In this document: in pieces, positions 7,059-53,905 of the stretch | Numbering within the stretch: the first letter of the stretch is position 1 | Layout of the letters: each line of letters starts with the position of its first letter | Assembly (NCBI GenBank): GCA_017460515.1 | Contig: JAFUAY010000012.1 | Span: forward strand, 62,001-126,000 | DNA: 64,000 bases | Source: Prevotella sp. | GTDB taxonomy: Bacteria > Bacteroidota > Bacteroidia > Bacteroidales > Bacteroidaceae | Reading direction: 5' to 3' | Made by a program: the position numbers and the translations under genes | The notes under the pieces: model-generated | Database searches by the model: none | The model's input: the letters and a program-made list of their open reading frames with translations, nothing else | What the model was told of the DNA's origin: nothing

Positions 7059-7104
7059 ATTGCTCTTTCTCTCTTTTATTAATTTCTATTCCGTATCGTC
7101 TATT

Positions 7105-7141
7105 AGAAAAATGAGATTGGAAATACGATTCCAATCTCATT
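7105..7141 (-). terminator. Terminator after the polysaccharide export gene
   Basis: Thirteen-base arms (7110-7122 and 7129-7141) pair perfectly around the six-base loop ATACGA. On the - strand a run of five T follows the stem. The hairpin starts seven bases after the stop of the export lipoprotein gene, separating it from glmS. Confidence 0.85.
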
Positions 7142-7148
7142 ATCTTTA

Positions 7149-9706: not shown

Positions 9707-10861
9707 TTACCTGTTCTTATGCCTGACGAACCATTGATGAATAATGGCTACGTAGACCATCAATCCTACAATTGTGAGGACGAGAGATGCAGATAGCAGC
9801 GAATGCGTATTTCCTTCAAAGAGGCAATAGCCCATTCCGATGCCAAGATAGAGCCCACTCTCCCATCCTATCAGATAGGTGCTCTGTGCTGTTCCTCGCT
9901 GGCAGTGACGACTCAGTTTGATGAAGAACAGGAGGAAGCGCGAACCAATAAGTCCCAACCCCAGTCCCATAAGCGGTGAAGTCAGCAGCGATGTGGGGGC
10001 AAACATCAGAAGCAGTTGGGCTGCAATCAGAAGTATCACACCTGAGACCACCTCGCTCATTAGCTCTGCATCGGGGAATACGAAACGCTGAGCCAACAAA
10101 GCCAGCAGGAAGCCCACCATCATCAACGCATAAAACTCGATACCAAGATTCAGCGAGAGCAATAATCCCATAGAAACGGTGATGAGAAGCAAATTGAACA
10201 GCAGAGGCCATCCTGACAATAAAAGGAATCGGTCGAAACTGAACAGATTGATATGATCATCAGGGGTTCTGAAAGGAATATGCACCAACATCACCAGCAG
10301 AGCTGAAGCTACACAACAGCCTGAAGCTACGAAGAGCATCGTCTTGAGACCCAGGAACTGAATCAGCAACAATCCCACCAGCGGACCTAATGAGAGTGAG
10401 AACCTTCCGAACCAGGTTGCAGCATAATTCGCTTCAGTACGGTGCGTTGACTCACATGTATCAATAATCAATGTTGAAGCCAGCACCATCTGTGCCAGTC
10501 CGAATGCCATTCCCTGTACCAATCGCATCGCAACCACCATCCAGAAAGGCATGTGGTACAGATAGACTGGCGGGATGATGGCAGCAGCCAGCAGAATGAT
10601 AGCCCATACACATACTTGATTACGACGATAGCTCTGTACCAAATAGGAACAGAAGACGCCCGGAAGCAGCAGGCCGAGTGCGAAAATGCCCATTGAGAAG
10701 CCTGTCTCTTCTGAGGTCAGTCCGTCAGCCATCATCATCCAGTTTGGCAACGTTGGAATCATCATCGTGATAGCCATCGACAGCAACATATTTGCTATAG
10801 AGACCATCCAGAAGTCCTTGTGCCACAATCGGATATGTACGGGTGTGTTCTGTGTATTCAT
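9707..10861 (-). CDS. Major facilitator superfamily transporter
   Basis: The 384-residue protein is almost entirely hydrophobic helices (about 12) and has the look of a DHA1-like MFS permease. The first helix starts near residue 16 (FWMVSIANMLLSMAITMMIP). Between helices 2 and 3 is a charged loop, SYRRNQV, in the place of the family's conserved loop motif. Substrate cannot be told from the sequence. It is the last gene of a - strand set with panB (20 bases away) and a HAD phosphatase, so a metabolite or pantothenate-related substrate is possible but only a guess. Confidence 0.8.
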   Translation of the reverse strand: MNTQNTPVHIRLWHKDFWMVSIANMLLSMAITMMIPTLPNWMMMADGLTSEETGFSMGIFALGLLLPGVFCSYLVQSYRRNQVCVWAIILLAAAIIPPVYLYHMPFWMVVAMRLVQGMAFGLAQMVLASTLIIDTCESTHRTEANYAATWFGRFSLSLGPLVGLLLIQFLGLKTMLFVASGCCVASALLVMLVHIPFRTPDDHINLFSFDRFLLLSGWPLLFNLLLITVSMGLLLSLNLGIEFYALMMVGFLLALLAQRFVFPDAELMSEVVSGVILLIAAQLLLMFAPTSLLTSPLMGLGLGLIGSRFLLFFIKLSRHCQRGTAQSTYLIGWESGLYLGIGMGYCLFEGNTHSLLSASLVLTIVGLMVYVAIIHQWFVRHKNR

Positions 10862-10881
10862 CTATTGACAATTAGCAACAA

Positions 10882-11703
10882 TTAGTACGACTCCGCCTCA
10901 TTGGGGAAATCGCCGCTCTTCACGTCGCCTACATAGCGTCCGATGGCATCAGTCATCATGCTGTTCAGGTCAGCATAGCGACGAAGGAAACGGGGTGAGA
11001 AGCCCTGCGTCATTCCCAGCATATCAGCAACCACCAGTATCTGGCCATCACAATGGTTGCCCGCACCAATACCGATAGTAGGAACGCTGATTTCGTTGGT
11101 CACCTTCTCTGCCAAAGCAGCAGGCACTTTTTCAAGTGTCACAGCAAAACATCCTGCCTCTGAAAGTGCTTTGGCATCGCTGATCAGCTTTTCTGCCTCG
11201 CGCTCTTCCTTGGCACGTACGGCATAGGTACCGAACTTATTGAGAGACTGAGGCGTCAGTCCCAGATGAGCCATCACAGGGATGCCTGCATCCAAGATAG
11301 CCTTCACAGTATCGATGATTTCTACGCCACCCTCCATCTTCACAGCATCACATCCACTCTCTTTCATGATACGGATAGCATTCACCACACCATCATGAAC
11401 ACCTGTCTGATAAGAACCGAAAGGCATATCGCATACCACGAGGGCTCGCTTTACTGCGTTCATCACCGAACGGGCATGATAGATCATCTGATCTACTGTC
11501 ATGGGGAGCGTGGTAGCATTTCCCACCATCACATTTGAAGCAGAGTCGCCAATCAGGATGCCATCAATACCTGCCTTGTCTACAATGCCTGCTGTAGTAT
11601 AGTCATAACTAGTGAGCATCGAAATCTTCTCACCTTTTTGCTTCATTTCAATAAAACGGTGTGTTGTCACCTTGCGTGTGTCACTTACTAAATATCCTGC
11701 CAT
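10882..11703 (-). CDS. panB: 3-methyl-2-oxobutanoate hydroxymethyltransferase
   Basis: PanB adds a hydroxymethyl group from methylene-tetrahydrofolate to ketoisovalerate, the first committed step to pantothenate and CoA. The 273-residue length is typical. Family signatures are visible: [42 protein letters not shown] with the metal-binding aspartate, [11 protein letters not shown], and AVKMEGG. Further on are [10 protein letters not shown] and [15 protein letters not shown]. Its start overlaps the end of the upstream HAD gene by 16 bases, indicating one transcript and coupled translation. panC and panD are not in the window. Confidence 0.96.
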
Positions 11704-40052: not shown

Positions 40053-41961
40053 AAATATTCATCTGACAATGACGACAATCAAACTCCACAGGAAAACAGC
40101 GACCATCAGCCAAACGTAACTGAAGCGGTTCGCACCATTGCGGCTTGCGCCCTCCATTCTTCACACAGAATCCTAACGAATAGCGGAGACAATGTCGACA
40201 CTGCATGATAAGCGCACAAGTGTTCGACGATTTTTGTTTGGCTATCCGGGGAGATGTATGAAGTTCAAACGCAGCTTCGGCATTTTTGAGCCCCTGCTGT
40301 TCATAGAATGCACGAGCCCGACTATTCGCTATATTATAAAAATAGGTACGCGCGTAAGAAGTAGGTGAAGAGTGGCGACTTGAAAGAGAAGAGACAAGAG
40401 AAAGATTCTTTTGTACATCACTTGGTTGAACGGATTGCGATGCCACACCTGATGCAATTCGCTGCTGAGCTGTTTCCGAAAATTTGGCGATGGCCAAACG
40501 ACGTAGTTCTGCCAATTGACTACTGGGGATGAAGTAGTCAAAATCATCGGGCAGCAATACCTCAGAACACTCATAAGGAGTACCACCAAGCTTAGAAAGC
40601 TGACGAATGATATTGTCACGCTGTGGCTTCTCTGCACGTTGATGCTCTAACGACATTGACACCTCTACATCTTCAACCATAAGAGAGAATCCGTTAGCAG
40701 TAGTCTTTAACATCATTCGAACAGGAATCTTTCGCTCAGCACTGGGGTGCGATAATAATAACTCAAAAGCCTGGTCATTATTACGATATAAACGAATACC
40801 CGGACGAAGAGAGGAAAGAGGACTCTTTTGTTCAGGAGTGTTTTTTTGAGGGGGCAAGAAGAGGCGGTTGCCCACTACCCTATTTACTCGAAAGCCTACA
40901 AGTTCCTGCTGTTCGTTGATAAAACAAAGACCATCGCCATTAACAAATGAAGCTGTTCCGGCAACGGTAAAAGACAGACGATCACGTATCTCCTTGACTG
41001 TTCCTACGAACTCCCCAATGGCTTTGGGCGTATCGAACGAGGCGATATCGGGCTGACGCCCCCCTGCAAAATAGGTGGTATAACCACGATTGAACGTTTT
41101 GCGTAGATCTGGCTTAAAAGTGTAGCGACAGATTCCACGCGAAGCACGCTGATAGCGGTCAGGATAACGCGTCACCAACTGGTTCAGCAATGTACTGTAA
41201 GCTGCTGTCACATTCTTTGCATAACTGAGACCCTTCAGGCGACCCTCAATTTTGAACGATGTAACACCTGCATCGGCAAGTTCCTCCAACTGATTACTCA
41301 AATTGAGATCCTTCAGTGATAACAGATAGCGCTGTTGCTCCACCATCTTACCATCAGCATCCAGCAGGTCGAACTTCATGCGACAAAACTGGGCACACTC
41401 ACCTCTGTTCGCACTTCTTCCGAAACAATGCTGGGAAGCATAACAGAGCCCTGAATAGCTAACGCAGAGCGCACCATGAACGAATGCTTCAAGTTCTACA
41501 TCGGGAACAGCCTCATGTATACTGCGAATCTCCTTAATACTCGTCTCACGCGCCAGTACTACACGTTGGAATCCTTGTTGTTTGAGCCACGCCACCTTCT
41601 CGGCATCCCGGTTATCTGTCTGAGTAGACGCATGCAGGACAAGCGATGATGGACAGACTGTCAACAGCGCCATATCTTGCACCAATACAGCATCCACATG
41701 GATATCAGCCAACTGTTGCAGCAATGCAGCCGTATCAGCCAGTTCATCCTCGTAAATAATGGTGTTGACCGTAACGTAGACCTTCACTCCGAACTGATGC
41801 GCATACCGGCACAACTGGGCAATATCCTCAACGCTATTGCCTGCTGATGCCCTTGCGCCAAAACGCTGGGCACCGATATAAACAGCATCAGCACCATGAT
41901 CAATGGCAGCTATGCCGCATTCCAGATTCTTGGCAGGAGCCAGTAACTCAAGAGCTCGCAT
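40036..41961 (-). CDS. U32-family peptidase-like protein (RlhA/TrhP group)
   Basis: The 641-residue protein begins with the U32 signature ELLAPAKNLECGIAAIDHGADAVYIG. It continues with VYVTVNTIIYEDEL, LEAFVHGALCVSYSGLCY, and a cysteine set (GLCYASQHCFGRSANRGECAQFCRM) that binds an iron-sulfur centre in RlhA/TrhP. These proteins hydroxylate rRNA or tRNA uridine/cytidine with prephenate and are not shown to be proteases in most cases. A C-terminal extension follows the domain. It ends with a zinc-type cysteine set (CALIMQCRHCLRYSLGFC and CRHC). It precedes the zinc-ribbon membrane protein gene with a 17-base overlap. Confidence 0.88.
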   Translation of the reverse strand: MRALELLAPAKNLECGIAAIDHGADAVYIGAQRFGARASAGNSVEDIAQLCRYAHQFGVKVYVTVNTIIYEDELADTAALLQQLADIHVDAVLVQDMALLTVCPSSLVLHASTQTDNRDAEKVAWLKQQGFQRVVLARETSIKEIRSIHEAVPDVELEAFVHGALCVSYSGLCYASQHCFGRSANRGECAQFCRMKFDLLDADGKMVEQQRYLLSLKDLNLSNQLEELADAGVTSFKIEGRLKGLSYAKNVTAAYSTLLNQLVTRYPDRYQRASRGICRYTFKPDLRKTFNRGYTTYFAGGRQPDIASFDTPKAIGEFVGTVKEIRDRLSFTVAGTASFVNGDGLCFINEQQELVGFRVNRVVGNRLFLPPQKNTPEQKSPLSSLRPGIRLYRNNDQAFELLLSHPSAERKIPVRMMLKTTANGFSLMVEDVEVSMSLEHQRAEKPQRDNIIRQLSKLGGTPYECSEVLLPDDFDYFIPSSQLAELRRLAIAKFSETAQQRIASGVASQSVQPSDVQKNLSLVSSLSSRHSSPTSYARTYFYNIANSRARAFYEQQGLKNAEAAFELHTSPRIAKQKSSNTCALIMQCRHCLRYSLGFCVKNGGRKPQWCEPLQLRLADGRCFPVEFDCRHCQMNIYAESH

Positions 41962-41970
41962 GTAGGATGA

Positions 41971-42888
41971 TCAGCTAATAGAGTTGATATCGAACGGTGT
42001 CTCCTGGTAAACATAATAGTTCACCCAGTTGTTGTAAAACAGGTTGGCATGAGCACGCCAGGTAACAAATGGTGGCTTCGAGGGGTCATCGTCATGATAA
42101 TAATTGCGAGGGACCTCAACATCGCTGCGTATATCCTTATCTCGACGATACTCATTGTCAAGTGTATTGGGAGCATACTCCAGATGTCCGGTAATGAAAA
42201 ATTCTCTTCCATTGCGGGCCATCACAATACTCACGCCACTATCGTCCGACTCGGCTATCAGCGACAGGGCGGGATTGGCAAGGATATCCTCACGATGCAA
42301 CTCAGTATGACGACTATGAGGCATCATGAATTCATCATCAAACCCGCGGAAAATAGGTAACTGCGCATCAAGCATACGCTGAGGAAAGATGCCGAACATC
42401 TTCTTATCCAACGGATACTTGGGCACACCATAATGGTAATAAAGGCCTGCCTGAGCAGCCCAACAGATATAGAGAGTACTCGTCACATGGGTCTTTGCCC
42501 ATTCAAAGATGGTTGTGATTTCTTCCCAATAGCTTACCTTCTCGAAGTCAAGTTGCTCAACAGGAGCCCCCGTGATAATCATCCCGTCGAACTTCTCGTT
42601 TCGCATGGAATCAAAATCGCGATAGAACATCATCATGTGTTCGATAGGCGTATTCTTGGGGGTATGACTTTTCAGCTTCATGAAGTTGATATCCAACTGA
42701 AGAGGCGTATTCGAGAGCAGACGTATCAGGTCTGTCTCTGTGGTAATCTTCAGCGGCATCAGGTTTAATATAACGATGCGCAACGGACGGATATCCTGTG
42801 AATGCGCACGTGTATCGTCCATGACAAAGATATTCTCACGCTTCAAGATATCAATGGCAGGGAGTCTGTCAGGAAGTCTTAAGGGCAT
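41971..42888 (-). CDS. metA: Homoserine O-acyltransferase, predicted O-acetyl type
   Basis: MetA activates homoserine for methionine synthesis. The 305-residue protein has the glutamine-amidotransferase-like fold with nucleophile Cys142 in ICWAAQAGL and the His-Glu pair in the C-terminal half (HSRHTEL and GHLEYAP). Residue 111 is glutamate (GAPVEQLDFE). In this family, E at 111 goes with acetyl-CoA use and G with succinyl-CoA, so O-acetylhomoserine is the expected product. The family name in databases is often succinyltransferase. It lies ten bases upstream of the U32 gene, in the order metA, U32, zinc-ribbon protein on the - strand. Confidence 0.94.
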   Translation of the reverse strand: MPLRLPDRLPAIDILKRENIFVMDDTRAHSQDIRPLRIVILNLMPLKITTETDLIRLLSNTPLQLDINFMKLKSHTPKNTPIEHMMMFYRDFDSMRNEKFDGMIITGAPVEQLDFEKVSYWEEITTIFEWAKTHVTSTLYICWAAQAGLYYHYGVPKYPLDKKMFGIFPQRMLDAQLPIFRGFDDEFMMPHSRHTELHREDILANPALSLIAESDDSGVSIVMARNGREFFITGHLEYAPNTLDNEYRRDKDIRSDVEVPRNYYHDDDPSKPPFVTWRAHANLFYNNWVNYYVYQETPFDINSIS

Positions 42889-42933
42889 ATTCTATTTTCA
42901 GATTTATCGAAAGTTGTTATATGTTTTGAATGA

Positions 42934-43692
42934 TCACTTTTCGCGAACAGTAGCCAAGATGACTGACACATTATCATAGCCGCCATACTCTTCGGCAGCC
43001 TTGCAGAGGTTCAATGCGTCACTGCCATTATTCAGCAGACGTTCAATCTCGCCATCGGCAATCATATCGGTAAGTCCGTCGCTACAAAGCATGAGTGTAT
43101 CTCCCACAGCAATATCATCATTACACTCCACAATATCAATAAAACTGGTAGTACATCCGCCACCGATACAGTTGGTGATAACATTGGAGTAATCTTTTGA
43201 ATCTGTTCCCATGAGATTGTTCAGCGAATGATCGGTAGTCAGCTGAGTGAGCTTTCCATCACGTAAGCGGTAGAGGCGGCTGTCGCCACAGTTCATCCAG
43301 TAGAAGTTGTCTTCATAAAATGCCAAAGCTACCAGTGTAGTACCCATACCCTTACAGTGCTCATCAACGCGCCCCTTCGCCTCCAGGTTGTTGTTCATAC
43401 TCTTCAGCCATTCGTAAATGACCTCATTGAAGTCGGCTATCTTCAAGCCTGCAGGTATATCTCCGTAGAAGAAACGAAGATTATGCAGCACATCGCTACT
43501 GGCCACTTCGCCCGACTGGTGACCTCCCATACCATCGGCAAGAGCCAAGATGAAACGATCAGAGCTGGACAAGTCGTGTTTCATGGCTGTCGAATCATTC
43601 CGAAGCAATAAGCTGTCGATCAACAGCATGTCTTCATTATTTTCTCTTACACAGCCTACACAACTGGCTGCCGTAATATCAAGTATATACAT
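42934..43692 (-). CDS. PP2C-family protein serine/threonine phosphatase
   Basis: The 252-residue soluble phosphatase has all key PP2C motifs. These are VRENNEDMLL (metal Asp), LADGMGGHQSGEVAS, GMGTTLVAL, CGDSRLYRLRDGKL, LCSDGLTDMI and the final GYDNVSVILA (metal Asp). A pair of cysteines near the N-terminus (ASCVGC) is not usual. It is the last gene of the five-gene kinase operon, four bases after the FHA gene, so it most likely removes phosphate from the kinase, its repeats or the AAA+ protein. It acts in the cytoplasm. Confidence 0.94.
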   Translation of the reverse strand: MYILDITAASCVGCVRENNEDMLLIDSLLLRNDSTAMKHDLSSSDRFILALADGMGGHQSGEVASSDVLHNLRFFYGDIPAGLKIADFNEVIYEWLKSMNNNLEAKGRVDEHCKGMGTTLVALAFYEDNFYWMNCGDSRLYRLRDGKLTQLTTDHSLNNLMGTDSKDYSNVITNCIGGGCTTSFIDIVECNDDIAVGDTLMLCSDGLTDMIADGEIERLLNNGSDALNLCKAAEEYGGYDNVSVILATVREK

Positions 43693-43696
43693 AATA

Positions 43697-44287
43697 TTAT
43701 TTTACACTAACTTGAAGGTTAACATTTGCTATCATAACCACATCACCATCATGAAGAGACATCTCGACATCGGGCTGCATGCGGTGTCCGTTCAACTTCG
43801 TTCCGTTTGACGAATGCTTATCGACAATACTCCAACCGGAATCGGCCTTATATCGCAACTGTGCATGAAGACCCGACACATACATATTGTTTTGGAAGAA
43901 CTGAGCAAACGGACCTTGACGGCGACCTATCACAGCTCCATCCTGTCCCTCGATCACAATGCCAAGTGTGCTGTTGCTAAGCGTCAGCGTCTGCATGCTC
44001 TTTGATACAACAACATTTGCACCACGCAACGATATCTGGTTGTAGTTTCCATTTGTGTTCACGACCCCTGAACCGACTACCGATATTTGTGAAGGAATAG
44101 CCGATCTGCTGGAGCTAATGCTCTTTATCATATCCTCAAGAGATACCATCATGCCGCCACAACTGGTACAGCGACGCCCCAGTCCTACTCTTCCGCAACG
44201 GTTACAATAGCGGAGGGCCTGTCCACACTGGTCACAGTAGTGGGAACTGTCTTCTATCTCTTCTTTACAATTCGGACAAATAATCAT
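43697..44287 (-). CDS. Zinc-ribbon and FHA-domain protein
   Basis: The 196-residue protein begins with a double zinc ribbon (CPNC, CDQC, CNRC, CTSC; cysteines between residues 4 and 43). A linker follows with beta-strand-like repeats. The C-terminal FHA domain (about residues 105-196) binds phosphothreonine. Its key residues are visible in AVIGRRQGPF (Gly-Arg), VSGLHAQLRY (Ser-Gly-His) and HSSNGTKLNG (Asn-Gly-Thr). The start overlaps the stop of the AAA+ gene by four bases. It is the likely reader of threonines phosphorylated by the neighbouring kinase. No membrane segment is seen. Confidence 0.93.
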   Translation of the reverse strand: MIICPNCKEEIEDSSHYCDQCGQALRYCNRCGRVGLGRRCTSCGGMMVSLEDMIKSISSSRSAIPSQISVVGSGVVNTNGNYNQISLRGANVVVSKSMQTLTLSNSTLGIVIEGQDGAVIGRRQGPFAQFFQNNMYVSGLHAQLRYKADSGWSIVDKHSSNGTKLNGHRMQPDVEMSLHDGDVVMIANVNLQVSVK

Positions 44288-47200
44288 AAATCTCTAATAT
44301 CTTCAGGTAGTATTAACTGATAAGTCTCTTTCGTCACCTGGTCAGGCGGTAGTTGAGAGACACGCATTGACAACTGTTGGATAGTCTCATCGAGCAGATT
44401 TCTCATCTCACGTGCATTGCCGAAACTTTCGGTCTTATGGCTAACCATCTTGTAGATAACATCGAGAATCTTGAACTCGGCAGCAGGTGCAAGTGAATAC
44501 TGTTCGCGCTGAGCCATCTTCTTATAGATAGCCAACAGTTCGTCTTCATTATAATCATCAATATGCAGCTTGTGGGTAAAACGACTTGCAAGGCCGGCAT
44601 TCATTTCCAGGAACTCTTCCATCTTATCCTTATAACCAGCTGCAATCACCACAAACTTACCACGATCGTCTTCCATTCGTTTCATCAGCGTATCGATTGC
44701 CTCCTTGCCATACTGGTCGTTTTGGTCGGACAAGGTATAGGCTTCATCAATAAACAAGATGCCGCCCATCGCTTTGTCACACATATTGTTGACTATCTTC
44801 GGCGTCTCACCCATGTATTTACCAACCAACGTAGCACGACTGGCCTCAATGACTCTTGAGGTGGGTAATATCTCCATTGACTGGAGCACCTCACCCATCT
44901 TACGTGCAATAGAGGTCTTGCCCGTACCGGGATTACCCGTCAGGATGAAGTTCATTGACATCTGCTGAACCTTTCCAGCTCCCATTGCAGCGCGCTGTTT
45001 CATAAACATGCTCTGAACGGCAAGACGACGGATGGCATTCTTCACTGAACGCATGCCGATAAACTCATCGAGTTCGTTGAGCACCTCATCAAGCGGACGT
45101 GCAACACCGCTATTGCCCATCGGCAGGTCATCGGCAGTTATCTTGAACATATCTGCCTCCTCAAAGTTCGGGTTGCCCATCATGGTTACCAGGCGCTGGC
45201 TCTGTTTCTCAACGGCCTCATCAAAGATGCGGCGAGCTTCACGCGCATTGCCGAAGTTCTTGTCGCGACGCAGGTAGAGCTGTTCAAACTGACGATGGAT
45301 GGCATTCTCTGTCGCTTCATCAACCGTGAACTTCTTATTCTTGGCAAGATTGAGGAATATCTGTGTCAGCTCATCAGGTGTATAGTCCTCGAAATGAATC
45401 GTTTGCGTAAAGCGGCTCTTCAATCCTGGGTTCGTATCAATGAAGTCGTGCATCTGGTCAGTATATCCAGCTACGATACAGATGAACTTTCCTCTATCGT
45501 CCTCCAATCGTTTCAGCAGCGTATCGATAGCTTCAGCACCGAAAGAATCGCTATCGTTCGACTTCAAGGTATATGCCTCATCAATAAACAGCACACCACC
45601 CATTGCAGTATCTATCAACTGATTGGTCTTGATAGCGGTTTGGCCGGAATAGCCAGCAACCAACTTAGAGCGATCAGCCTCAACCAACTGTCCACGAGAT
45701 ACGATGCCAAGAGTCTTAAACACATCAGCCATGATACGTGCAACCGTTGTCTTACCTGTACCTGGATTTCCCGTAAAGACATAATGTTTCCCCTGGAACG
45801 TGTTTGTCTCTCCGCGTTTGATCTGCAACGTGAGGAACGAAGCCAGATTAGTGATTTCTTTCTTCACACTGGCCAAACCAACCATTCCATCCAGTTTCTT
45901 CAGGCAGTCGCCCAAATCAACCTCCTTCGGTGCCTCATATGGAATATCCTCTTCAACAATGGTCATGAGTTCCTCATTACTCATCATCGTCAGATCACCG
46001 CCCTGCAATCGTTGTGCCTGCTTCTTGCAAATCTGGTCAAAGAGACTACGCATCGTACGTCCGTTGGCAAAATCTTTATCGCGGGAATCATAAAGTTCGG
46101 TAATCATCTTTCTTGCTAGGGCCTCGGCATCGGGTGAGAAGATGTATTTCTTCTCTTTGGCAAACACCATCATGATCTGGAACAGCTCGTCGGGCGTATA
46201 GTCCTCGATATTCAGGAAATAGTTGAAACGACTGTGCATACCTGGGTTCACACGGAAGAGATTCTCCATTTCCGTCCGGTATCCAGCTGCAATGACAACG
46301 AATTTATCGCGGTCATCCTCCATACGCTTCATGAGGGTCTCTAAAGCCTGAGCGCCCTGGTTATCGCGATCACCTGTCTGGCTGACGGGTGCTAATGTGT
46401 ATGCCTCGTCAACAAAAAGGATTCCTCCCATCGCTTTGTCGCAAAGGCGATTGACTACCTTGGGAGTTTCTCCCTGATACTGGCTGACCATTTGCGAGCG
46501 GTCGACCTCGACCACATGGCCCGAATCAAGATAACCTATTGATGAGAGAATCTCACCCAACTTACGGGCAATTGTAGTCTTACCAGTACCAGGATTACCT
46601 GTGAGCACGATATGCATAGCCATTTTCTCCTGCTCACCCAATCCGCGCTCGGCACGCTGAAGGCTGTTCTGAACAGAATAGGCAATTTCTCGTACAGCTT
46701 GTTTCACCTCACTCATGCCGATATACTTATCCAAATCGGAGAGTATCTCGTCGAGCGAGCGCTCTTCGGGCACATAACCACGAATATCCCCCAGTTCAAC
46801 CTTGCTGGCTCCAGCACCTCTGCTGATGAACGACGAGAAGATGTCCTCTGCCGTCTTCATAGCAAGATGGGCATTTCCGAATGTTTCGTCCTTGATCTTT
46901 ATCTGATACTTGAAATACCGCGTCAGCTGATTGTCGGCTTCAGGAGTAAAATCAATGATGCCGTACTTCATGCGGAGCGCCAGTTTTGTGATGGCAGTCA
47001 GTTCCTGATAGTTGGGTACGGGCAGACGGAAGGTATACTTGAATCTGTTCTTCACCGCCGGATTATTCTCCAGGAAGTCATCAAGTCCTTTAGGAAGTCC
47101 TGCCATCACGACGATGGGATTATCCTCCCACTTATCCATTTCGACGAAAAGTTTGTCGAGCGGATTTACCTGATTTGAATATTTGTCAGGGAGAAGCTTC

Positions 47201-47598
47201 TGTACATTATCAAAGAAGAGAATGCCGTCTTTCGCCTTTTTAATATTCTCGTCCCAATTGTCAACGAATCTGGAATAGTCGACTGCATCAACAATTGTTA
47301 TCTTCGACTTGCTGATAATGCGGTGCTGATAAAAATACTCCCGGAGTATTTCAGTCAGCGCGGTCTTACCTGTACCTGTCTCACCAATAATAATCGAGTT
47401 GACTGAGAGACGGACGGTGGCCACATCCTTGCGCGAGCGCATATATGTATAGGTGTCGACAATGGTCTTCAGCTGTGCCTTCAGGTCTTCTAATCCTACC
47501 AACCTGTCGAGCACATTCTGTGAGACAAGTGGCTTGCCGCACCACTTGCAGAACTTGGCTATATTTCTATTTTCCTTATGACAGTATTCGCAAATCAT
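44284..47598 (-). CDS. Giant AAA+ protein with N-terminal zinc ribbon and four AAA modules
   Basis: The 1104-residue protein starts with a zinc ribbon (C3, C6, C17, C20). Four AAA+ modules follow with Walker A at 72-79 (GETGTGKT), 334-341, 610-617 and 888-895 (each GNPGTGKT). Modules 2-4 have intact Walker B (ILFVDEAYTL type) and belong to the CbbX/EccA-like clade. Module 1 has FFDN in place of DE, so it probably binds but hardly hydrolyses ATP. CbbX relatives remodel or activate other protein complexes. Start and stop each overlap the neighbour by four bases (kinase upstream, FHA gene downstream). The target is unknown. Confidence 0.92.
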   Translation of the reverse strand: MICEYCHKENRNIAKFCKWCGKPLVSQNVLDRLVGLEDLKAQLKTIVDTYTYMRSRKDVATVRLSVNSIIIGETGTGKTALTEILREYFYQHRIISKSKITIVDAVDYSRFVDNWDENIKKAKDGILFFDNVQKLLPDKYSNQVNPLDKLFVEMDKWEDNPIVVMAGLPKGLDDFLENNPAVKNRFKYTFRLPVPNYQELTAITKLALRMKYGIIDFTPEADNQLTRYFKYQIKIKDETFGNAHLAMKTAEDIFSSFISRGAGASKVELGDIRGYVPEERSLDEILSDLDKYIGMSEVKQAVREIAYSVQNSLQRAERGLGEQEKMAMHIVLTGNPGTGKTTIARKLGEILSSIGYLDSGHVVEVDRSQMVSQYQGETPKVVNRLCDKAMGGILFVDEAYTLAPVSQTGDRDNQGAQALETLMKRMEDDRDKFVVIAAGYRTEMENLFRVNPGMHSRFNYFLNIEDYTPDELFQIMMVFAKEKKYIFSPDAEALARKMITELYDSRDKDFANGRTMRSLFDQICKKQAQRLQGGDLTMMSNEELMTIVEEDIPYEAPKEVDLGDCLKKLDGMVGLASVKKEITNLASFLTLQIKRGETNTFQGKHYVFTGNPGTGKTTVARIMADVFKTLGIVSRGQLVEADRSKLVAGYSGQTAIKTNQLIDTAMGGVLFIDEAYTLKSNDSDSFGAEAIDTLLKRLEDDRGKFICIVAGYTDQMHDFIDTNPGLKSRFTQTIHFEDYTPDELTQIFLNLAKNKKFTVDEATENAIHRQFEQLYLRRDKNFGNAREARRIFDEAVEKQSQRLVTMMGNPNFEEADMFKITADDLPMGNSGVARPLDEVLNELDEFIGMRSVKNAIRRLAVQSMFMKQRAAMGAGKVQQMSMNFILTGNPGTGKTSIARKMGEVLQSMEILPTSRVIEASRATLVGKYMGETPKIVNNMCDKAMGGILFIDEAYTLSDQNDQYGKEAIDTLMKRMEDDRGKFVVIAAGYKDKMEEFLEMNAGLASRFTHKLHIDDYNEDELLAIYKKMAQREQYSLAPAAEFKILDVIYKMVSHKTESFGNAREMRNLLDETIQQLSMRVSQLPPDQVTKETYQLILPEDIRDL

Positions 47599-50500
47599 TC
47601 GTCTAAATCATTTTGAACTTGTTCTATGACTTGTTTCACCTCTTCACGTCCAAAAGTCGGATTCTTGATATTCAGCAGCTTCGGGCTGAACGCACAGAAC
47701 TCCACGATCAAGATGAGGTACAGCAATCCCCATAATGCATAGTGAAGCACGTTTTCGCCTGAAATGCTTCTAACCTGATTGGAGATATCATCCAGCAATC
47801 CGAATTTCGTACTCTTATAGCGGAACGATTTTGTCTTGAACGTATAGTAGAGCGGTTCCATCAACGAGGTATTAATATCTTCGGTAGTTAGGATTTCGCG
47901 GATGGCTTTTGCACTGGTCTTATCATCATGCTGGAACACCGTCAGATGGCAAATCACCATATAGATTAGTGATATCAGTACCATCACGGGAATAAAGAGT
48001 GACGGACTCCATGACTGTGCGAACTTCAACATGTAGATAGGTGCGAATGCCGACCCGAACCCTAAACATCCTAACAGGAATGCGAGGAAGGCACCGATAC
48101 CGCCAAAGAATGCACGAATGGCAACGATGACAGCGGTCATAGATCCTACGGGGAGCAGAATTGTCAGATAAGGATGCTCCAGGATGTAGGTACGATTATC
48201 AATGCCTACTACCACCAAGAGACCAATCCAAACGGCAGCCAGGAAATAATACAGATAACGCCAAAGCATTTCTCTGCTTCGTGCCGAATTCCAGTCATGC
48301 CTTACCTCAGCAATACGTTCGGTAGTATCTTCACGCGCCTTGATGAAACGCTTGTAATACATTTGTTGAGCATCCAGTTCACCAAGTGCCAACAACCATT
48401 TCTCCAGTTCATGCTCATAGCTGTATTCTTCAGCGAAATCCATGTTCGGATTCTCGTGATAGAATACTGACAACCACTGTGACAATGAGCCGGTACGAAG
48501 CTCGTTTCGGATAGCATTCGCCAGACGCTTTTCTTTCACGTCTTCCACTTTCTTCAACTTGGTGCCGTCAGGAAGTTTGTAATAAGGAGTGGCACCGAGA
48601 ATAGAACAATAACGATAGAGCGCTGTATGCAGGTCATAGGCGCTGAGGCGCTCACGGTTCTCTTCTGAATTGAGATTGAAACAACGCTCAGCTTCCGACA
48701 TCTCGTGATACCATCCGTGCAGCTGGGCATAATAACGGAACCGACCGTTCTCGTCACAGAAGTCCTGCATCTCAACAGCCAGATCGTCATTGGTCGTATG
48801 CTGAACTGTCGTCAACAGGTCGCACAGCAGTTCTCCCACCAGGGCCGGTGTGTTTGCCTCACGCAGGTCATAGGCAGCTGTACGATCCAGGTTGTACAGT
48901 ACTTTATAGGCCAGCGACATTGAGAACGGCTGCCCCTGTGTCATGATACGCAATGACTCGCAAGCCATCACGTCTTCATGGCTAATCATCCAGGACAGGA
49001 GTCGTCCGTCAGTCAATGAATGCCAGTCATCCTCAGTCATATTGCCACTACCGAAAGACTTGACAATCTCTGACAGTGACGCTGACGACGAATTGGAGAG
49101 GAATGGAATATCAGGATCTATCTCATAGACCAAGCGCATGATTGCCACATGGGGCTCTGCATCTGGTGTAAAGTAAGAGCGCAGACGATTGACATCAGCC
49201 TTGGTATGCGACTCCAACCAGAGGAACAGTGAATCATTGGCATTCTGCAGTTCCAACGCATAACGCTCCTTATAACTTAACAGCGACAGTGCGATGCTAT
49301 GAACATCCTCGCAGGCTTCGTTCTGGACATCATGATACGGATAAGACGCATCCATCACGTAGACAGAAGCCATCAGACCTGCCTTTTGATCAACGGGATA
49401 GCGATTGGTGATAATGTCTTTCACCAATGCTGACAACTTTGTATTGCCACACGTCTCCAACCAAGTTGTGATACGTCCGTTATACAGATAGTTGATGGCA
49501 AGGTTCTTGTTCTCCAACAGCATCGGAATGAGCTCCTGAATATTATCGGCAACCAGGTTACGGTCAGGGTCAACGATGAAACTCTTATAACGAAGGAATG
49601 GAGATGACAAGTCGATGGGCACATCTTCACCCAGGAACCAGCGCTCCACCTCTTCATACTTCCAACGACTTAAGGGATTCACGGCAGTAAGTCCCTGAAC
49701 GAGACGCTTCACTCTGGGAGGCAACTCCTCGATACGTGGCAGACGTCCCTCGTTCTTCTGGCGCATCATGGCACGCTCGTTCGAACTCATCGGGTTTTCG
49801 CCTAACCAAAGCGCAAAAAGAGTAATACCCAGGGAATAATAATCTGCTGCAGGTGTTATCTCTACCTCTCCGTCAATCACATCGGCATACATCTCCGGTG
49901 CGGCATAAACTGGTGTACGTGCTTGTGTCGTACGATATGATTTCCCGTCATTCTCCACCATAGACGAGATGCCGAAATCGCCCAACACCAACTGGGTATG
50001 TGCTTCGTCGCGGAAAAAGAAGTTTGAGGGTTTGATATCCTTGTGCAGGATGTTATTCTTATGACAGAAAGCGAGTGCTGCAGCAGCTTGCAGGGTAATA
50101 CGACGAAATGCATTGACATCGCCTCCTAAATGATACTCCTGAAGCGATCCTCCCTTCAGGTATTCCATCAGTTCATAGAAACGATGCTTTCCGTCAACGT
50201 AGGTCTTGCCGAAGTCATCAAGACTGACAATCATCTCAAAATGGAAGTTTCGGATGACCTGCATCAATTTCCTGTTGACGTCATAGTTCGGGTAATAGAC
50301 CTTCAATACCCGCTCCACCCCATTTCGATTTACCAGGAACACCTGTGCCTCACCGGAATTCTCGCTCAATGACTTCACTAATTTCCAGCGTTCGCCCTTC
50401 AGCATGAATCCGTCACCCTCCATATCTTCGTCCATGATGATAGGAGCTGAAGGTCTCACCTCAGGTCTGATGGTATGGAATTCGCCATCGAGAAGATCAT

Positions 50501-50780
50501 CCTGCGGAACGCTATTTGCCACGATAGTACGATCTGCAACTATCGTTTTGTCGGCGACAATTGTTTTGTCAGCAACTATTGTCTTATCTGCGACTATCGT
50601 CCTGTCAGCGACAATGGTCTTGTCGGCGACTATTGTCTTATCAGAGACGATGGTACGATCTCCCATAGCCGAACGGTTTATGACTATTGTCCGGTCATTA
50701 TCTACCTGGGGGGTCTGTCTTTTATTATCGTTTGCTTCTGGCACGTTGTCCAGTTCTGTATCGTTGATGAATTCGCTCAT
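47595..50780 (-). CDS. Membrane Ser/Thr protein kinase with N-terminal TIV repeat array
   Basis: The 1061-residue protein has four parts. Residues 31-93 carry ten TIV motifs, nine of them at exact six-residue spacing (pattern D-K/R-T-I-V-A). Residues about 135-395 are a Hanks-type kinase: K166 (RVLKVYY), HKD at 252-254 with N259, DFG at 274-276 and APE at 300-302, all catalytic residues present. Residues 400-840 are a long, mostly helical region without a recognised family. The last 200 residues have about five membrane helices, then a cytoplasmic tail. The repeats look like phospho-acceptor or docking sites for the FHA protein. The stop overlaps the AAA+ gene start by four bases. Confidence 0.92.
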   Translation of the reverse strand: MSEFINDTELDNVPEANDNKRQTPQVDNDRTIVINRSAMGDRTIVSDKTIVADKTIVADRTIVADKTIVADKTIVADKTIVADRTIVANSVPQDDLLDGEFHTIRPEVRPSAPIIMDEDMEGDGFMLKGERWKLVKSLSENSGEAQVFLVNRNGVERVLKVYYPNYDVNRKLMQVIRNFHFEMIVSLDDFGKTYVDGKHRFYELMEYLKGGSLQEYHLGGDVNAFRRITLQAAAALAFCHKNNILHKDIKPSNFFFRDEAHTQLVLGDFGISSMVENDGKSYRTTQARTPVYAAPEMYADVIDGEVEITPAADYYSLGITLFALWLGENPMSSNERAMMRQKNEGRLPRIEELPPRVKRLVQGLTAVNPLSRWKYEEVERWFLGEDVPIDLSSPFLRYKSFIVDPDRNLVADNIQELIPMLLENKNLAINYLYNGRITTWLETCGNTKLSALVKDIITNRYPVDQKAGLMASVYVMDASYPYHDVQNEACEDVHSIALSLLSYKERYALELQNANDSLFLWLESHTKADVNRLRSYFTPDAEPHVAIMRLVYEIDPDIPFLSNSSSASLSEIVKSFGSGNMTEDDWHSLTDGRLLSWMISHEDVMACESLRIMTQGQPFSMSLAYKVLYNLDRTAAYDLREANTPALVGELLCDLLTTVQHTTNDDLAVEMQDFCDENGRFRYYAQLHGWYHEMSEAERCFNLNSEENRERLSAYDLHTALYRYCSILGATPYYKLPDGTKLKKVEDVKEKRLANAIRNELRTGSLSQWLSVFYHENPNMDFAEEYSYEHELEKWLLALGELDAQQMYYKRFIKAREDTTERIAEVRHDWNSARSREMLWRYLYYFLAAVWIGLLVVVGIDNRTYILEHPYLTILLPVGSMTAVIVAIRAFFGGIGAFLAFLLGCLGFGSAFAPIYMLKFAQSWSPSLFIPVMVLISLIYMVICHLTVFQHDDKTSAKAIREILTTEDINTSLMEPLYYTFKTKSFRYKSTKFGLLDDISNQVRSISGENVLHYALWGLLYLILIVEFCAFSPKLLNIKNPTFGREEVKQVIEQVQNDLDE
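50505..50690 (-). repeat. 18-bp coding repeats for the TIVAD hexapeptide array
   Basis: The kinase gene has about nine in-frame 18-bp units, each coding for D-K/R-T-I-V-A. Third codon positions vary among units (for instance ATC/ATT, GTT/GTC, GAC/GAT), while the peptide is nearly constant. This points to selection on the protein sequence and not to a recent DNA expansion alone. Confidence 0.9.
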
Positions 50781-50799
50781 GAATTACTGAAGGAATAAG

Positions 50800-51729
50800 C
50801 TATTTATCGTCTTTGATTTCTTGTTTGCTGCCACGTCCCAAGATGACCCACTTACCTCCCATCTGAGGCTTGGCGCATCCACAGGGGCTGCTATGCATTG
50901 CGTGCTTCCAGTTACAGACCCAAGCCAGACGGACGCCAGCAGGTTTCTGTGCCATTGCATAATTACGAACCTTGGCCGGAGTGGGTTCAGCAGGTTCTGG
51001 CATTTTACTGAGCAGTTCTGCGATACGGGCCAGCTTTTCCTCTTTAGCCTTCGCAAGCTCGTCTTTGCTCATGCGCACTCTCTCCATCTTTGGGATGACT
51101 GGGTCGGTAACGCCCTCATCCTGTGCCAACAGTTTCAGCACATGCTCACGGAATTTCTGAGAAGCATCATCGCGAGCTTTTTCACGTTCGGTAGAGATGG
51201 GATTCTCTAACTGAAGCGAGTCATATTCTTTGGCCAACCGAACCATCTCCTGATATTCGGGCATCTGTTTCATTTGTTTCATCAGCATCTGTGCCTCTTC
51301 TGTCAGTGGAGTACCGCACTGCTTGCAGAACGCGAAATCGCTCAGGGTATGACAAGTAGGACAAACGATACCGCCACGGGGAGAGCCACATTCAGGACAG
51401 AAGGCATCCTGTGGTGCAAAACGGGCACCGCAGAAGGAACAGACGTCCTGTCTTACGTAATGATGACAGACCTCACAATAGTCTGCATCATCATCGAGCG
51501 GACTTCCACAATGTGGGCACGATCCCGAATGAAGCGCCGAGCCGCATGAGACACAATAAAGAGTGCCTAAAGTGTTGGTCGTTCCGCATTGCTGACAGAC
51601 AACCGACCCAGGCATATTAAACTGCTGAGCTTGCTGACTTTGTTGATTGTTCATTGGAGCAGATTGCACTCTTCCGTCCATCTGGCGCTGCTGGTTAAAC
51701 ACCGGATTTTGTGTTGTTTCGTTGGCCAT
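50800..51729 (-). CDS. Protein with four zinc ribbons, first gene of the kinase operon
   Basis: The 309-residue protein has a glutamine/asparagine-rich N-terminus. Four consecutive zinc ribbons follow with 16 cysteines (CQQC/CVSC, CPHC/CEVC, CSFC/CPEC, CPTC/CKQC; residues about 44-145). Then comes a charged helical stretch with coiled-coil character (residues about 150-250), and a C-terminal segment with WVCNWKH and SPCGC cysteines. No enzyme signature or membrane helix is present. Similar ribbons occur at the N-termini of the AAA+ and FHA proteins in this operon, which suggests a shared scaffold or interaction mode. It lies 19 bases upstream of the kinase gene. Confidence 0.88.
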   Translation of the reverse strand: MANETTQNPVFNQQRQMDGRVQSAPMNNQQSQQAQQFNMPGSVVCQQCGTTNTLGTLYCVSCGSALHSGSCPHCGSPLDDDADYCEVCHHYVRQDVCSFCGARFAPQDAFCPECGSPRGGIVCPTCHTLSDFAFCKQCGTPLTEEAQMLMKQMKQMPEYQEMVRLAKEYDSLQLENPISTEREKARDDASQKFREHVLKLLAQDEGVTDPVIPKMERVRMSKDELAKAKEEKLARIAELLSKMPEPAEPTPAKVRNYAMAQKPAGVRLAWVCNWKHAMHSSPCGCAKPQMGGKWVILGRGSKQEIKDDK

Positions 51730-51757
51730 AAAAATTTACTTTAGCTAAAATACTGTG

Positions 51758-51765
51758 CAAAGTTA
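51758..51765 (-). promoter_or_regulatory. -7 box of the kinase operon
   Basis: TAACTTTG followed by C on the - strand matches the consensus and lies 28 bases before the zinc-ribbon gene. It sits right after the terminator of the upstream peptidase gene. A clear -33 element is lacking, so an activator may be needed. Confidence 0.55.
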
Positions 51766-51787
51766 ATGAAATTGAACGAAATAAAAG

Positions 51788-51816
51788 AAAAAACCGCCAC
51801 ATTTTTTTGTGACGGT
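51788..51816 (-). terminator. Terminator of the M13 peptidase gene
   Basis: ACCGCCACA (51793-51801) and TGTGACGGT (51808-51816) pair with one mismatch. Six T follow on the - strand. It isolates the kinase operon from the peptidase gene. Confidence 0.85.
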
Positions 51817-51868
51817 CTTTAAGTTTTTATTTTGAAGAGCCTTAGTGCCCCTCAAAGCGCCTGAACGC

Positions 51869-53905
51869 TTACCACAAAGGCAGGCGTTCTTCCTTGGGAA
51901 TATACATTTTGTTATCTGGCTTGATATCGAATGCTTCATACCATGCATCGATATGAGGCAACGCACCGTTGACGCGCCATCTGCCAAGTGAATGAGGGTC
52001 AATCTTGGTCAGTCGGCGAATCTCAGCCTCATTGATATTACCTGCCCACACACCAGCATAGGCCAAGAAGAAGCGCTGGTCGGCAGTAAAGCCATCCATA
52101 TCAGGCAGCGGCTGATCCTTTGTAGCATTCTTATAGGCTGAATAAGCCACCATCAGACCTCCGTGATCAGCCAGGTTCTCACCCAGTGTCAATCTGCCAT
52201 TGGCATTCAGGTCGGGCAGTACTTTGATAGCTGAGAAGAAGTCTGCATAACGGTCGGTACGAGCCTTGAAGTTTTCGGCATCGGCTTCCGTCCACCAGTC
52301 GTGCATGTTTCCATCCTTATCAAACTGGCGTCCCTGATCGTCGAATCCGTGAGTCATCTCATGTCCGATAACCACTCCGATAGCACCGTAGTTAAAGGCA
52401 TCATCAGCCTCCATATTGAAGAACGGATGCTGCAGAATGCCTGCAGGGAAACAGATTTCGTTGGTAGTAGGATTATAGTAGGCCTACACCGTCAGAGGAT
52501 ACATGTGCCAGTCATCGCGGTCGACAGGCTTACCAGCCTTATGCTCGATATCCCACTTCGTCCAGAAACGGTTACACTCCCTCATATTCTCCAGATAACT
52601 CTTGGCAGGATCGATGGTGAGTGCTGAGATATCCGTCCACTTATCAGGATAGCCCACCTTCACATAGAACGTATTCAGTTTGTCATGAGCGTTCAGCTTG
52701 GTGGAGTCACTCATCCAATCCTGTGCATCGATGCGTTCGCCGAGAGCAATCTGCAGGTTCTTTACCAACTGAACCATACGTTCCTTGGCTTCAGCAGGGA
52801 AATATTTCTTGACGTAGATTTGCCCGAGCGCCTCACCCATCACGCTTTCCAACTGGCGAGTTGAACGACGCCACAGCGGATGGTCTTCCTTGCGACCGGA
52901 AAGGACTTTGCCAAAGAACTCGAAGTTGACTTTCTGCACCTCATCGCTCAGCTGTGAGGCTGCATCGTGAATCTGTCCGAGCTCCATGTAATCACGATAT
53001 TCAGCGGGGGTCAGCGCTGAGATAATCTTGTCGGCTCCGGCCATGAATTCAGGCTGTCCCACTACCAGTTCCTGGAAGTACTTGCTGTCTAATCCCTTTG
53101 CATTAAGCAATTTCTCCAACTGGAGGTGAGGATAGTTCTTCTGGAAGTCCTGCAAGGTGGTCTTGTTGTAGTTCTTCTGCGGATCACGAAGCTCAGTACG
53201 CGAACGTGACACGCGAGCCAGTGCTGTTTCAATCTTAATGATGTTATCACGCTTTGCCTGTGCCTGCTGTTCGGTGAATCCGAAGAGCTGGAACATCTTT
53301 ACGATGTGTTTCTTGTATTCCTCACGAATATTGACGGTAGCTGAATCGGTAGCCAGATAATAGTCCTTTTCACCCAGCGTCAATCCACTCTGAAAGACGT
53401 TCACGATATTCTCCGTTGCGTTCTTCTCGTCTGCACCGAGATAGGCACCCCAGAACTCCGAATCGCCCATAGGAGCCAGTTCCAGTTGGATAGCGAACAG
53501 TTCATCAACAGTTTTGGCCTGTTCCATACGCTCGATAAGAGGCATCAGCGGCTTCACGCCGTCCTGGTCACGCTTCACGCTATCCATAGCCAACTTGTAG
53601 AGGTCGCTCAGCTTCTGTTCAATCGTTCCCTGCTCAAAGCTTCCTTTCAGCAGTTCATCCAAGATACCGTTCACACGCTTGTTGTTCTCCTCAGCCAACA
53701 CGTCGAAGGATCCATAACGGGAGTAGGCAGCGGGGAGCGGATTGTTCTGCATCCATCCGCCGCAGGCATACTGGTAGAAATCATCACCAGCCGTTGCGGT
53801 CGAATCCAGGTTGCTTAAGTCAAGTCCTGACTTCATTGAATTACTGTTACTGCAGCCCACGACGGTGGCCATCGAAGCAGCTGCAACCATTAGTTTCATA
53901 TTCAT
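51869..53905 (-). pseudogene. pepO: M13 (neprilysin/PepO) metallopeptidase gene interrupted by an amber codon
   Basis: The same frame runs from 53905 to 51869, a full M13 length of 678 codons, but TAG at 52484-52486 stops it after residue 473. The N-terminal part has a lipobox (VVGCSNS) and the family opening GDDFYQYACGGWMQNNPLP. After the stop the frame continues at once with family sequence (AYYNPTTNEICFPAGIL), then the zinc motif VIGHEMTHGFDDQG, the third ligand in GENLADHGG, and the C-terminal CxxW-like end. The TAG stands where relatives usually have asparagine (V-N-AYYNP). The zinc site is lost unless the codon is read through. Everything else is intact, so this is a recent mutation, a sequence error or recoding. 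A terminator follows. Confidence 0.85.

Follow-up and report, generated by a model that had tools for sequence, protein, structure and literature searches.

The window analysed here is a stretch of 64,000 nucleotides from Prevotella sp. (assembly GCA_017460515.1, contig JAFUAY010000012.1, positions 62,001 to 126,000), and between its positions 42934 and 51729 the minus strand carries an operon of five genes. In order, these encode a multi-zinc-ribbon protein (ZNR), a membrane Ser/Thr kinase (KIN), a zinc-ribbon protein with tandem AAA+ modules (AAA), a zinc-ribbon protein with an FHA domain (FHA) and a PP2C-type phosphatase (PP2C). The gene set is strictly co-conserved and its active and binding sites are intact; the kinase carries an array of threonine repeats, and the first AAA+ module lacks its catalytic glutamate. 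We propose, with moderate confidence, that the five proteins work as a single AAA+ machine at the inner membrane, controlled by phosphorylation, in which a membrane phospho-switch would recruit a tandem AAA+ remodeller. The sequence-only reading of this stretch had described five closely spaced genes on one strand with these domains, and the open reading frames and Pfam bear it out, the intergenic spacings being +19, -4, -4 and +4 bases:

50800..51729, minus strand: ZNR, multi-zinc-ribbon protein, 309 aa; Pfam DZR at 3.2e-21 in 3 stretches; orthologues in the other 32 complete loci
47595..50780, minus strand: KIN, membrane Ser/Thr kinase, 1061 aa; Pfam Pkinase at 4.7e-31
44284..47598, minus strand: AAA, zinc ribbon and four CbbX/EccA-type AAA+ modules, 1104 aa; PF00004 in 4 stretches, PF17866 (AAA_lid_6) in 3 stretches
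43697..44287, minus strand: FHA, double zinc ribbon and FHA domain, 196 aa; FHA at 3.8e-13, DZR at 6.1e-7
42934..43692, minus strand: PP2C-type phosphatase, 252 aa; Pfam PP2C_2 at 1.5e-11

Conservation and co-occurrence of the five genes

Loci were gathered from a kinase search of 119 relatives, a search of the phylum, a search of the order and a scan of named genomes (loci, genomes and contigs are numbered with L, G and C). Profiles of the five families were then run on all six frames of 40 loci. All five genes are present in 32 of them, and presence is what "complete" means here, gene order not being a criterion. Five more are cut by contig ends in a compatible way (L055 and L025, both of G033, and L057, L151 and L164), L061 is a paralogue, and L165 and L166 hold zinc ribbons only. 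In all 33 complete loci, that is the 32 and the window, the order is ZNR-KIN-AAA-FHA-PP2C on one strand. This recurrence is beyond chance, and it agrees with the earlier suggestion of a self-contained unit. The window's genus, Prevotella, accounts for 25 of the 33 (the window, L034-L054, L149, L062 and L063, the last titled only Prevotellaceae; G067 has two copies). Four come from other families of the order (L056, L163, L064 and L065, the last two titled Bacteroidales), and four lie outside the class (L150, L152, L153 and L154), with FHA proteins 30-33% identical to that of the window. The closest named relatives among the matches listed are Prevotella sp. (62% identity) and uncultured Prevotellaceae (60%), in each case for the best segment.

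Something stands between core genes in three of the 33 loci: a SUKH-like gene after ZNR (L153), a GNAT-domain gene before PP2C (L065), and an AAA gene in two frames (L056). The last (L056 11250-15151, in G092) consists of a long frame and a 174-aa frame, which could reflect a frameshift, the end of a pseudogene or a genuine split.

The window's KIN as query matched 41 of the 119 relatives. In 24 of these genomes the match is to a long kinase (E <= 5.5e-73); the remaining 17 match at E >= 4e-21 and over the kinase domain only, with the membrane region matched at one further place. The FHA profile matched in 24 of the 119 genomes, always about 150 bases or less behind an AAA gene of the same family, and FHA and the long kinase occur together in 23. 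The two exceptions lie at contig ends: G040 has FHA but no kinase, and its contig begins inside the AAA gene; G083 has the long kinase but no FHA, and its contig ends inside the AAA gene. Contig ends aside, the co-occurrence of FHA and long kinase has no counterexample in the 119 genomes, and the homologues are not scattered without each other. Within the genus, mean identity is 78% for AAA against 53-60% for the other four proteins, making AAA the slowest-evolving member of the operon.

The predicted switch and its motor

The best clue to the mechanism of the operon is the threonine array in the N-terminal tail of the kinase, a feature that the sequence-only reading did not contain. The parts of the proteins discussed below are as follows:

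50517..50696, minus strand: threonine array of nine D[RK]TIV units, KIN residues 29-88, from a reading of the repeats, with an 18-bp DNA array at 50532-50648
49641..50393, minus strand: KIN catalytic domain, about residues 130-380; Pfam stretch 173-378, N-lobe from the alignment
47694..48257, minus strand: KIN membrane region, five hydrophobic segments, residues 842-1029, by hydropathy
47194..47226, minus strand: Walker B of AAA+ module 1, GILFFDNVQKL, in which Asn replaces the catalytic Glu
50848..50922, minus strand: ZNR C-terminal motif WxCNx5Hx2Px2Cx2Px2GGxW, residues 270-294; C272, H279, C285, G291 and W294 each in 33 of 33 loci

In the window the threonines of the units are written with four codons and the residues are constant; pN/pS between units is 0.15, which indicates selection on the residues of the array. 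The tails of relatives vary in length, repeat number and spacer, and they keep threonine repeats, for example DKTIANL (L037), QDMTMRGAS (L041), SDATLVGM (L051), DKTLKPD (L056) and DDKTIR (L151 and L153). The motif [DE]xT[ILVM] occurs 90 times in the tails of the 33 complete loci, against 7.5 expected. When L057, L151 and L164 are added to give 36 tails, it occurs 95 times against 8.3 expected, and none of 2000 shuffles gave more than 18. The serine version of the motif occurs twice in the 33 tails, where 5.1 are expected. Per 1000 residues, the motif is found 38 times in the tails, and 0.7-4.9 times in other regions of the five proteins (rest of the kinase 0.9, N-terminal parts of ZNR 4.9, AAA 1.6, FHA 1.9, PP2C 1.1); in 69 kinases of other loci the value is 1.6. 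Around the 276 threonines of the tails, Asp is enriched 3.2-fold at position -2, Ile 4.0-fold and Leu 3.5-fold at +1, and Arg 6.6-fold at +2.

FHA domains take phosphothreonine, not phosphoserine. The Arg, Ser, His and Asn of the phosphothreonine pocket are each kept in 33 of 33 FHA proteins of the operon, as expected of a phosphothreonine reader. Since the tail is restricted to threonine, built of repeats and fast-changing, and the pocket residues are kept throughout, the array fits a co-encoded FHA reader, and we infer that the KIN tail is a likely phosphothreonine docking array for the FHA protein.

The enzymes on either side of such a switch look intact. The catalytic Lys, the HxD Asp, the Asn and the DFG Asp of KIN are each kept in 33 of 33 loci, as are five motif residues of PP2C. 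Against solved structures, the best 60 of 527 matches to KIN are all eukaryotic kinases. PP2C scores 156.5 bits against the Stp1/IreP model NF033484 (cut-off 230), and is thus related to that family but not its equivalog. Two more kinase-like genes lie in the same genome outside the window, at G000:C50:218728-219399 (L002) and G000:C46:65618-66055 (L003), the latter scoring just below the family cut-off.

In the window's AAA protein the P-loops begin at residues 72, 334, 610 and 888, and CxxC pairs, read from the sequence and invariant in the alignment, precede them at the N-terminus. By motif, there are four P-loops in 29 of the 33 loci, five in L152-L154 and three in L064. With 4 AAA and 3 AAA_lid_6 stretches the protein belongs with the CbbX/EccA/SpoVK family. 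Its only solved relatives at E <= 1e-20 are CbbX (3zuh, 3syk) and EccA1 (9lur), and it exceeds the NCBIfam cut-offs of CbbX/EccA-type models with scores summed over several modules, which is not proof of orthology. In module 1, all 33 loci have Asn as the second residue of Walker B, with Asp before it in 30 of them; in modules 2, 3 and 4 the pair is Asp-Glu throughout (33 of 33). Module 1 also keeps its Walker-A Lys (33 of 33) and its arginine finger (30 of 33). Because the Walker-A Lys is kept and the Walker-B Glu is replaced, module 1 probably binds ATP but does not hydrolyse it. Proteins with at least 2 adjacent CbbX-type modules, in open frames of 876-1126 aa, are also found in five genomes of the order (G081:C96, G091:C124, G106:C230, G107:C228 and G098:C58), none of which matches the FHA profile of the operon; a wider tandem-AAA+ family may therefore exist.

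The ZNR protein gave one weak match to solved structures (E 0.004). No Pfam model covers its conserved C-terminal motif, which is a candidate for an uncharacterised zinc-binding domain.

From these features we infer the following cycle. KIN would sense a condition, probably of the envelope, and phosphorylate threonines in the array at its own N-terminus. One or several of these phosphothreonines would then be bound by the FHA protein, which, via its zinc ribbon and with ZNR as scaffold, would recruit or activate the tandem AAA protein, and the latter would remodel a client. PP2C would strip the phosphates and so reset the switch. Within the AAA chain, module 1 would hold ATP without hydrolysis as a fixed or regulatory module, and modules 2-4 (2-5 in three relatives) would form the motor.

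Outer domains, insertion site and accessory genes

Hydropathy gives five membrane segments for the window's KIN and between 2 and 6 for 14 other kinases; an odd number would put the C-terminus of KIN outside. Behind the last membrane segment, the kinase of L064 has a PG_binding_1 domain (1.9e-17) and that of L163 a bacterial SH3 domain (5.4e-11); six other relatives' kinases were scanned and have no C-terminal domain of the peptidoglycan-binding or SH3 type. By eye only, the kinase of L065 resembles that of L064, and a GxWxGx[FI] region is common to the kinases of L056, L061, L151 and L153. The window's KIN and those of three genus relatives end 27-54 residues past the last membrane segment.

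Wall-binding domains of this kind invite comparison with the PASTA kinases PknB and StkP, which have a Stp phosphatase and FHA partners; GarA and OdhI are FHA partners of PknB-type kinases. The operon might accordingly serve envelope-stress signalling of the PknB/StkP kind, with many kinase substrates and with AAA as one client among others, not the output. The two outer domains speak for this, as does the Stp1-like phosphatase encoded beside the kinase; a membrane kinase and an FHA reader are features common to both. There are also described precedents: mycobacterial CwlM binds the FHA protein FhaA after phosphorylation by PknB (PMC6180346), and seven phosphorylatable juxtamembrane threonines of StkP influence division (PMC12077195). 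However, PASTA domains were found neither in the window's kinase nor in the kinases of 8 relatives (Stk1 model 64.6, cut-off 450). The operon kinases have several membrane segments, followed by PG_binding_1, SH3 or nothing, and their threonine repeats are N-terminal, not juxtamembrane. The operon also offers an AAA+ protein as a candidate output, and it is this protein that changes slowest. Furthermore, the presence of FHA in only 24 of the 119 relatives argues against a housekeeping wall regulator. We consider the PknB/StkP account rather unlikely.

Upstream of the operon, two features lie between ZNR and pepO:

51789..51820, minus strand: terminator-like hairpin 3' of pepO, a 13-pair stem followed by a T run, the upstream boundary of the operon
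51758..51765, minus strand: candidate promoter -7 box TAACTTTG, about 29 bases 5' of the ZNR start

The upstream end is thus sharp, with a hairpin and a TAACTTTG box ahead of ZNR. We take this box to be of the Bacteroidota -7 promoter type; the pattern used to search for it, TANNTTTG, occurs 48 times in the window against 29 expected by shuffling. Downstream, the gap from PP2C to metA is 45 bases and no terminator is visible in it, so that metA may be co-transcribed with the operon. Rfam gave no match at the gathering threshold in 41900-52500. The gene beside the operon for an M13/PepO-like peptidase (51869-53905, minus strand) has one in-frame TAG near 52484-52486, and the two PepO parts are equally spaced in operon-less relatives too.

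Of the 25 genus loci, 22 have a gene the size of metA (305 aa) after PP2C, and in four genomes this gene was confirmed as metA; the exceptions are L037 (other neighbours), L046 (cut) and L053 (317 aa). Among 16 operon-less genus genomes searched, metA is present in 14, and in 9 of the 16 pepO lies about 60-300 bases from it, as an empty site. In the 14 with metA, an ABC-F gene is beside it in one, and the short stretch examined shows no PepO in four. Since pepO adjoins metA where the operon is absent, the five-gene block is gained or lost as one unit at a mostly fixed site.

The operon is sparse and its distribution patchy and all-or-none among relatives. Long ZNR matches were found in 7 of 395 genomes of the phylum and, within the class to which G188 belongs, in 4 of 149; in the order, 10 of 295 genomes match, 5 of them over a long stretch and 5 over the zinc ribbons only. 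In the phylum of G879 (the genome of L119, titled Lachnospiraceae) 11 of 398 genomes match, and none is counted as a relative, because the matches are confined to positions 8-136 of the 309 of the ZNR profile, the zinc ribbons without the C-terminal motif. A set of 49 genomes reached via kinase loci, mostly of other phyla with two titled Bacteroidetes/Bacteroidia, gave 0 of 49 and, containing no positive genome, is uninformative on breadth outside Bacteroidota. ZNR searches of plasmids and of viral contigs gave no match, and a plasmid or viral origin was rejected on this ground. Among phage records there are 11 matches to the AAA protein; phage G gp596, which matches best, is encoded by 1239 bases, too short for a tandem, and was rejected as a relative of the layout.

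Pfam was run on 34 non-core neighbours, a part of the total, and many are ordinary metabolic genes. SUKH-like genes occur in L151, L152 and L153, the match in L151 being weak (19.8 bits, cut-off 27) yet related to that of L153. DUF1963 occurs in L056 and L172, and DUF4062 in L065 and L172, the copy in L172 also having repeats and, weakly matched, a P-loop (AAA_16 at 23.7 bits under a cut-off of 32.6). A TPR-like protein is common to L172, L064 and L056. The earlier description of an operon with no obvious effector holds for the window, but among relatives DUF1963 or DUF4062 is present in three loci, the paralogous operon being one, and SUKH-like genes in three. In the 24 other genus loci, single-sequence searches with the accessory proteins gave no match.

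The paralogue, L061, sits in G037, which also has a normal operon; it reads AAA-ZNR-KIN-AAA-FHA, with no match to PP2C. L172, on the same contig (G037:C26), is its upstream part, and together they read TPR-like protein, DUF1963, DUF4062 with P-loop and repeats (1338 aa), AAA, ZNR, kinase, AAA and FHA, with pentapeptide and SH3 proteins downstream. The core of the L061 kinase is shortened, with GDYD at the position of DFG, and no threonine array is visible by eye. A further variant, L171 (G786), has all five families in order, with a kinase of 549 aa, an AAA protein of 824 aa and inserted genes. Two of these, at 6637-7260 (207 aa) and 10326-11582 (418 aa), have no Pfam match, and the former starts with an internal repeat.

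Both the accessory genes and the distribution bear on a role in defence or conflict, in which the phospho-switch would keep the machine silent until attack by a phage or competitor. The patchy, all-or-none occurrence would suit this, and SUKH-like, DUF1963 or DUF4062 genes stand beside the core or the paralogous core in relatives; SUKH proteins are described as immunity proteins of polymorphic toxin systems (PMC3482391). The best PADLOC matches are also to defence proteins: KIN to MAD6 of MADS (114 bits) and AAA to IetA (95 bits). These matches are, however, at the level of domains. In NCBIfam, the MAD6 model, with a cut-off of 460, gives 84.9, the likeness being confined to the kinase domain, and the model for the anti-phage ATPase IteA gives 80.7 (cut-off 510). 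No nuclease or toxin domain is among the Pfam families listed for the five proteins (for AAA, the best 25 of 70), cross-matches to the AAA P-loops aside. The fixed site next to metA and the lack of plasmid and viral matches to ZNR also count against this role, which we judge unlikely.

Putting these strands together, a fuller but doubtful picture can be drawn. The operon would encode a new kind of bacterial machine, a tandem AAA+ motor in which four or five CbbX-type modules are covalently linked in one chain and the first is permanently locked. Its assembly at the membrane would be controlled by the FHA protein, docking multivalently on the fast-changing threonine array that the kinase phosphorylates on itself. 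Elsewhere in Bacteroidota it would be connected with wall sensors and with conflict genes of the SUKH and DUF4062 (STAND-like) kinds, and it would act as an envelope-surveillance or immune system.

Weighing the docking array, and comparison with known systems

Several points weigh against a docking array on an envelope-sensing kinase. The residue at +3, which sets FHA specificity in known cases, is not strongly fixed in the tails: at this position stand Pro for 47 and Ala for 41 of the 276 threonines, enrichments of 2.6 and 1.6. The motif [DE]xT[ILVM] was picked after viewing the tails, and hence the shuffles are not a blind test. It is absent from 5 of the 36 tails, and several of the 31 tails that bear it have a single copy, no more than shuffles often give; in L163 it occurs once and SGTQRP dominates. 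Threonine is still plentiful in the five tails without the motif: in L035 and L040 it sits in TVR/TLR sites that lack the acid at -2, and in L064, L065 and L164 it occurs once per unit in different tandem repeats (PQPTAAA, PQKTA and PDGTDV). A weaker motif excess is seen in the FHA protein (12 against 6.4) and in the N-terminal parts of ZNR (12 against 3.2), so that the tail of KIN may not be the sole ligand. As for sensing, the range of 2-6 membrane segments makes the side of the C-terminus insecure, the window's KIN stops soon after its last segment with no evident envelope sensor there, and the C-terminal domain on which envelope sensing is argued, found in some relatives, is missing from the window's genus.

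The tail could instead be a timer based on multisite phosphorylation, or a decoy for the kinase, with the FHA protein reading AAA, ZNR or an outside protein. The loose +3 position and the motif excess in ZNR would be explained in this way, and the StkP threonines offer a parallel for phosphorylation that influences division (PMC12077195). The selection for threonine alone (90 motifs against 2 for serine) and an intact FHA domain in every complete locus tell against it, and we hold a timer or decoy to be improbable.

The type VI threonine phosphorylation switch consists of PpkA, Fha and PppA, and, like the operon, it has a kinase, an FHA reader and a PP2C eraser encoded together as a phosphothreonine switch of a large machine. 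That the operon is a relocated switch of this kind, or a type VII (EccA) regulator, is nevertheless very improbable: for it speak the three shared activities, a weak match to TagH/VI_FHA (TIGR03354, 34.9 bits, below its cut-off of 120.25) and EccA matches summed over four modules, but VipB/TssC and WXG100 were each found in 0 of 12 operon genomes (11 of the 12 at least 90% complete; controls matched in E. coli only, and in B. subtilis and T. maritima, respectively), and no secretion gene is among the 34 scanned neighbours. A type VI or type VII identity was rejected on the absence of the two markers from these 12 genomes, and the linkage to a known secretion system that would have refuted the earlier reading was not found there. 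Beyond what the type VI pathway (PMC5995506) contains, the operon encodes a zinc-ribbon protein and a chain of AAA+ modules in tandem, and its likely docking array lies inside its own kinase.

No description of the five-gene operon was found in the open-licence literature, in line with the earlier statement that no system with this exact gene set was known; this is weak evidence of absence, as most subscription journals lie outside that literature. If the phospho-switched machine proposed here is correct, its five genes would make up a whole circuit of kinase, reader and eraser in Bacteroidota, and no such system was found for this phylum in the literature searched.

Other known systems share single parts. 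The TerY-P triad comprises a vWA protein, a kinase and a PP2C. Kinase and PP2C with zinc ribbons are shared by TerY-P and by the GAP1-N2 GTPase conflict systems, which combine kinase, PP2C and vWA according to a published description (PMC7159879). The operon differs in having no GTPase and no vWA, the latter being absent among the Pfam families listed for the five proteins (for AAA, the best 25 of 70), and in an AAA+ protein of CbbX type, not seen in GAP1-N2 systems as far as that description goes. With CbbX, EccA and SpoVK the operon shares AAA modules with the AAA_lid_6 lid, but it has four or five modules per chain, a first module without the Walker-B Glu, and an N-terminal zinc ribbon. A tandem AAA+ chain with a probably inactive module, here in a bacterium, is a layout otherwise familiar from eukaryotic motors such as dynein and midasin.

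The closest described design is, by analogy, that of eukaryotic MDC1 and NBS1, in which repeated threonine motifs (SDTD) are phosphorylated by CK2 and recruit the FHA domain of NBS1 (PMC3280358). The proteins are unrelated, and in place of CK2 the kinase that bears the array would presumably phosphorylate it. With writer, probable docking array, reader, eraser and motor side by side, how a bacterial phosphothreonine switch drives a machine would become testable with five purified proteins, and the arrays of relatives form a natural series for measuring the evolution of FHA avidity. The kinase-FHA-PP2C switch is already known as a type; in our judgement, what is new is the unusual motor and a docking array that the switch carries itself.

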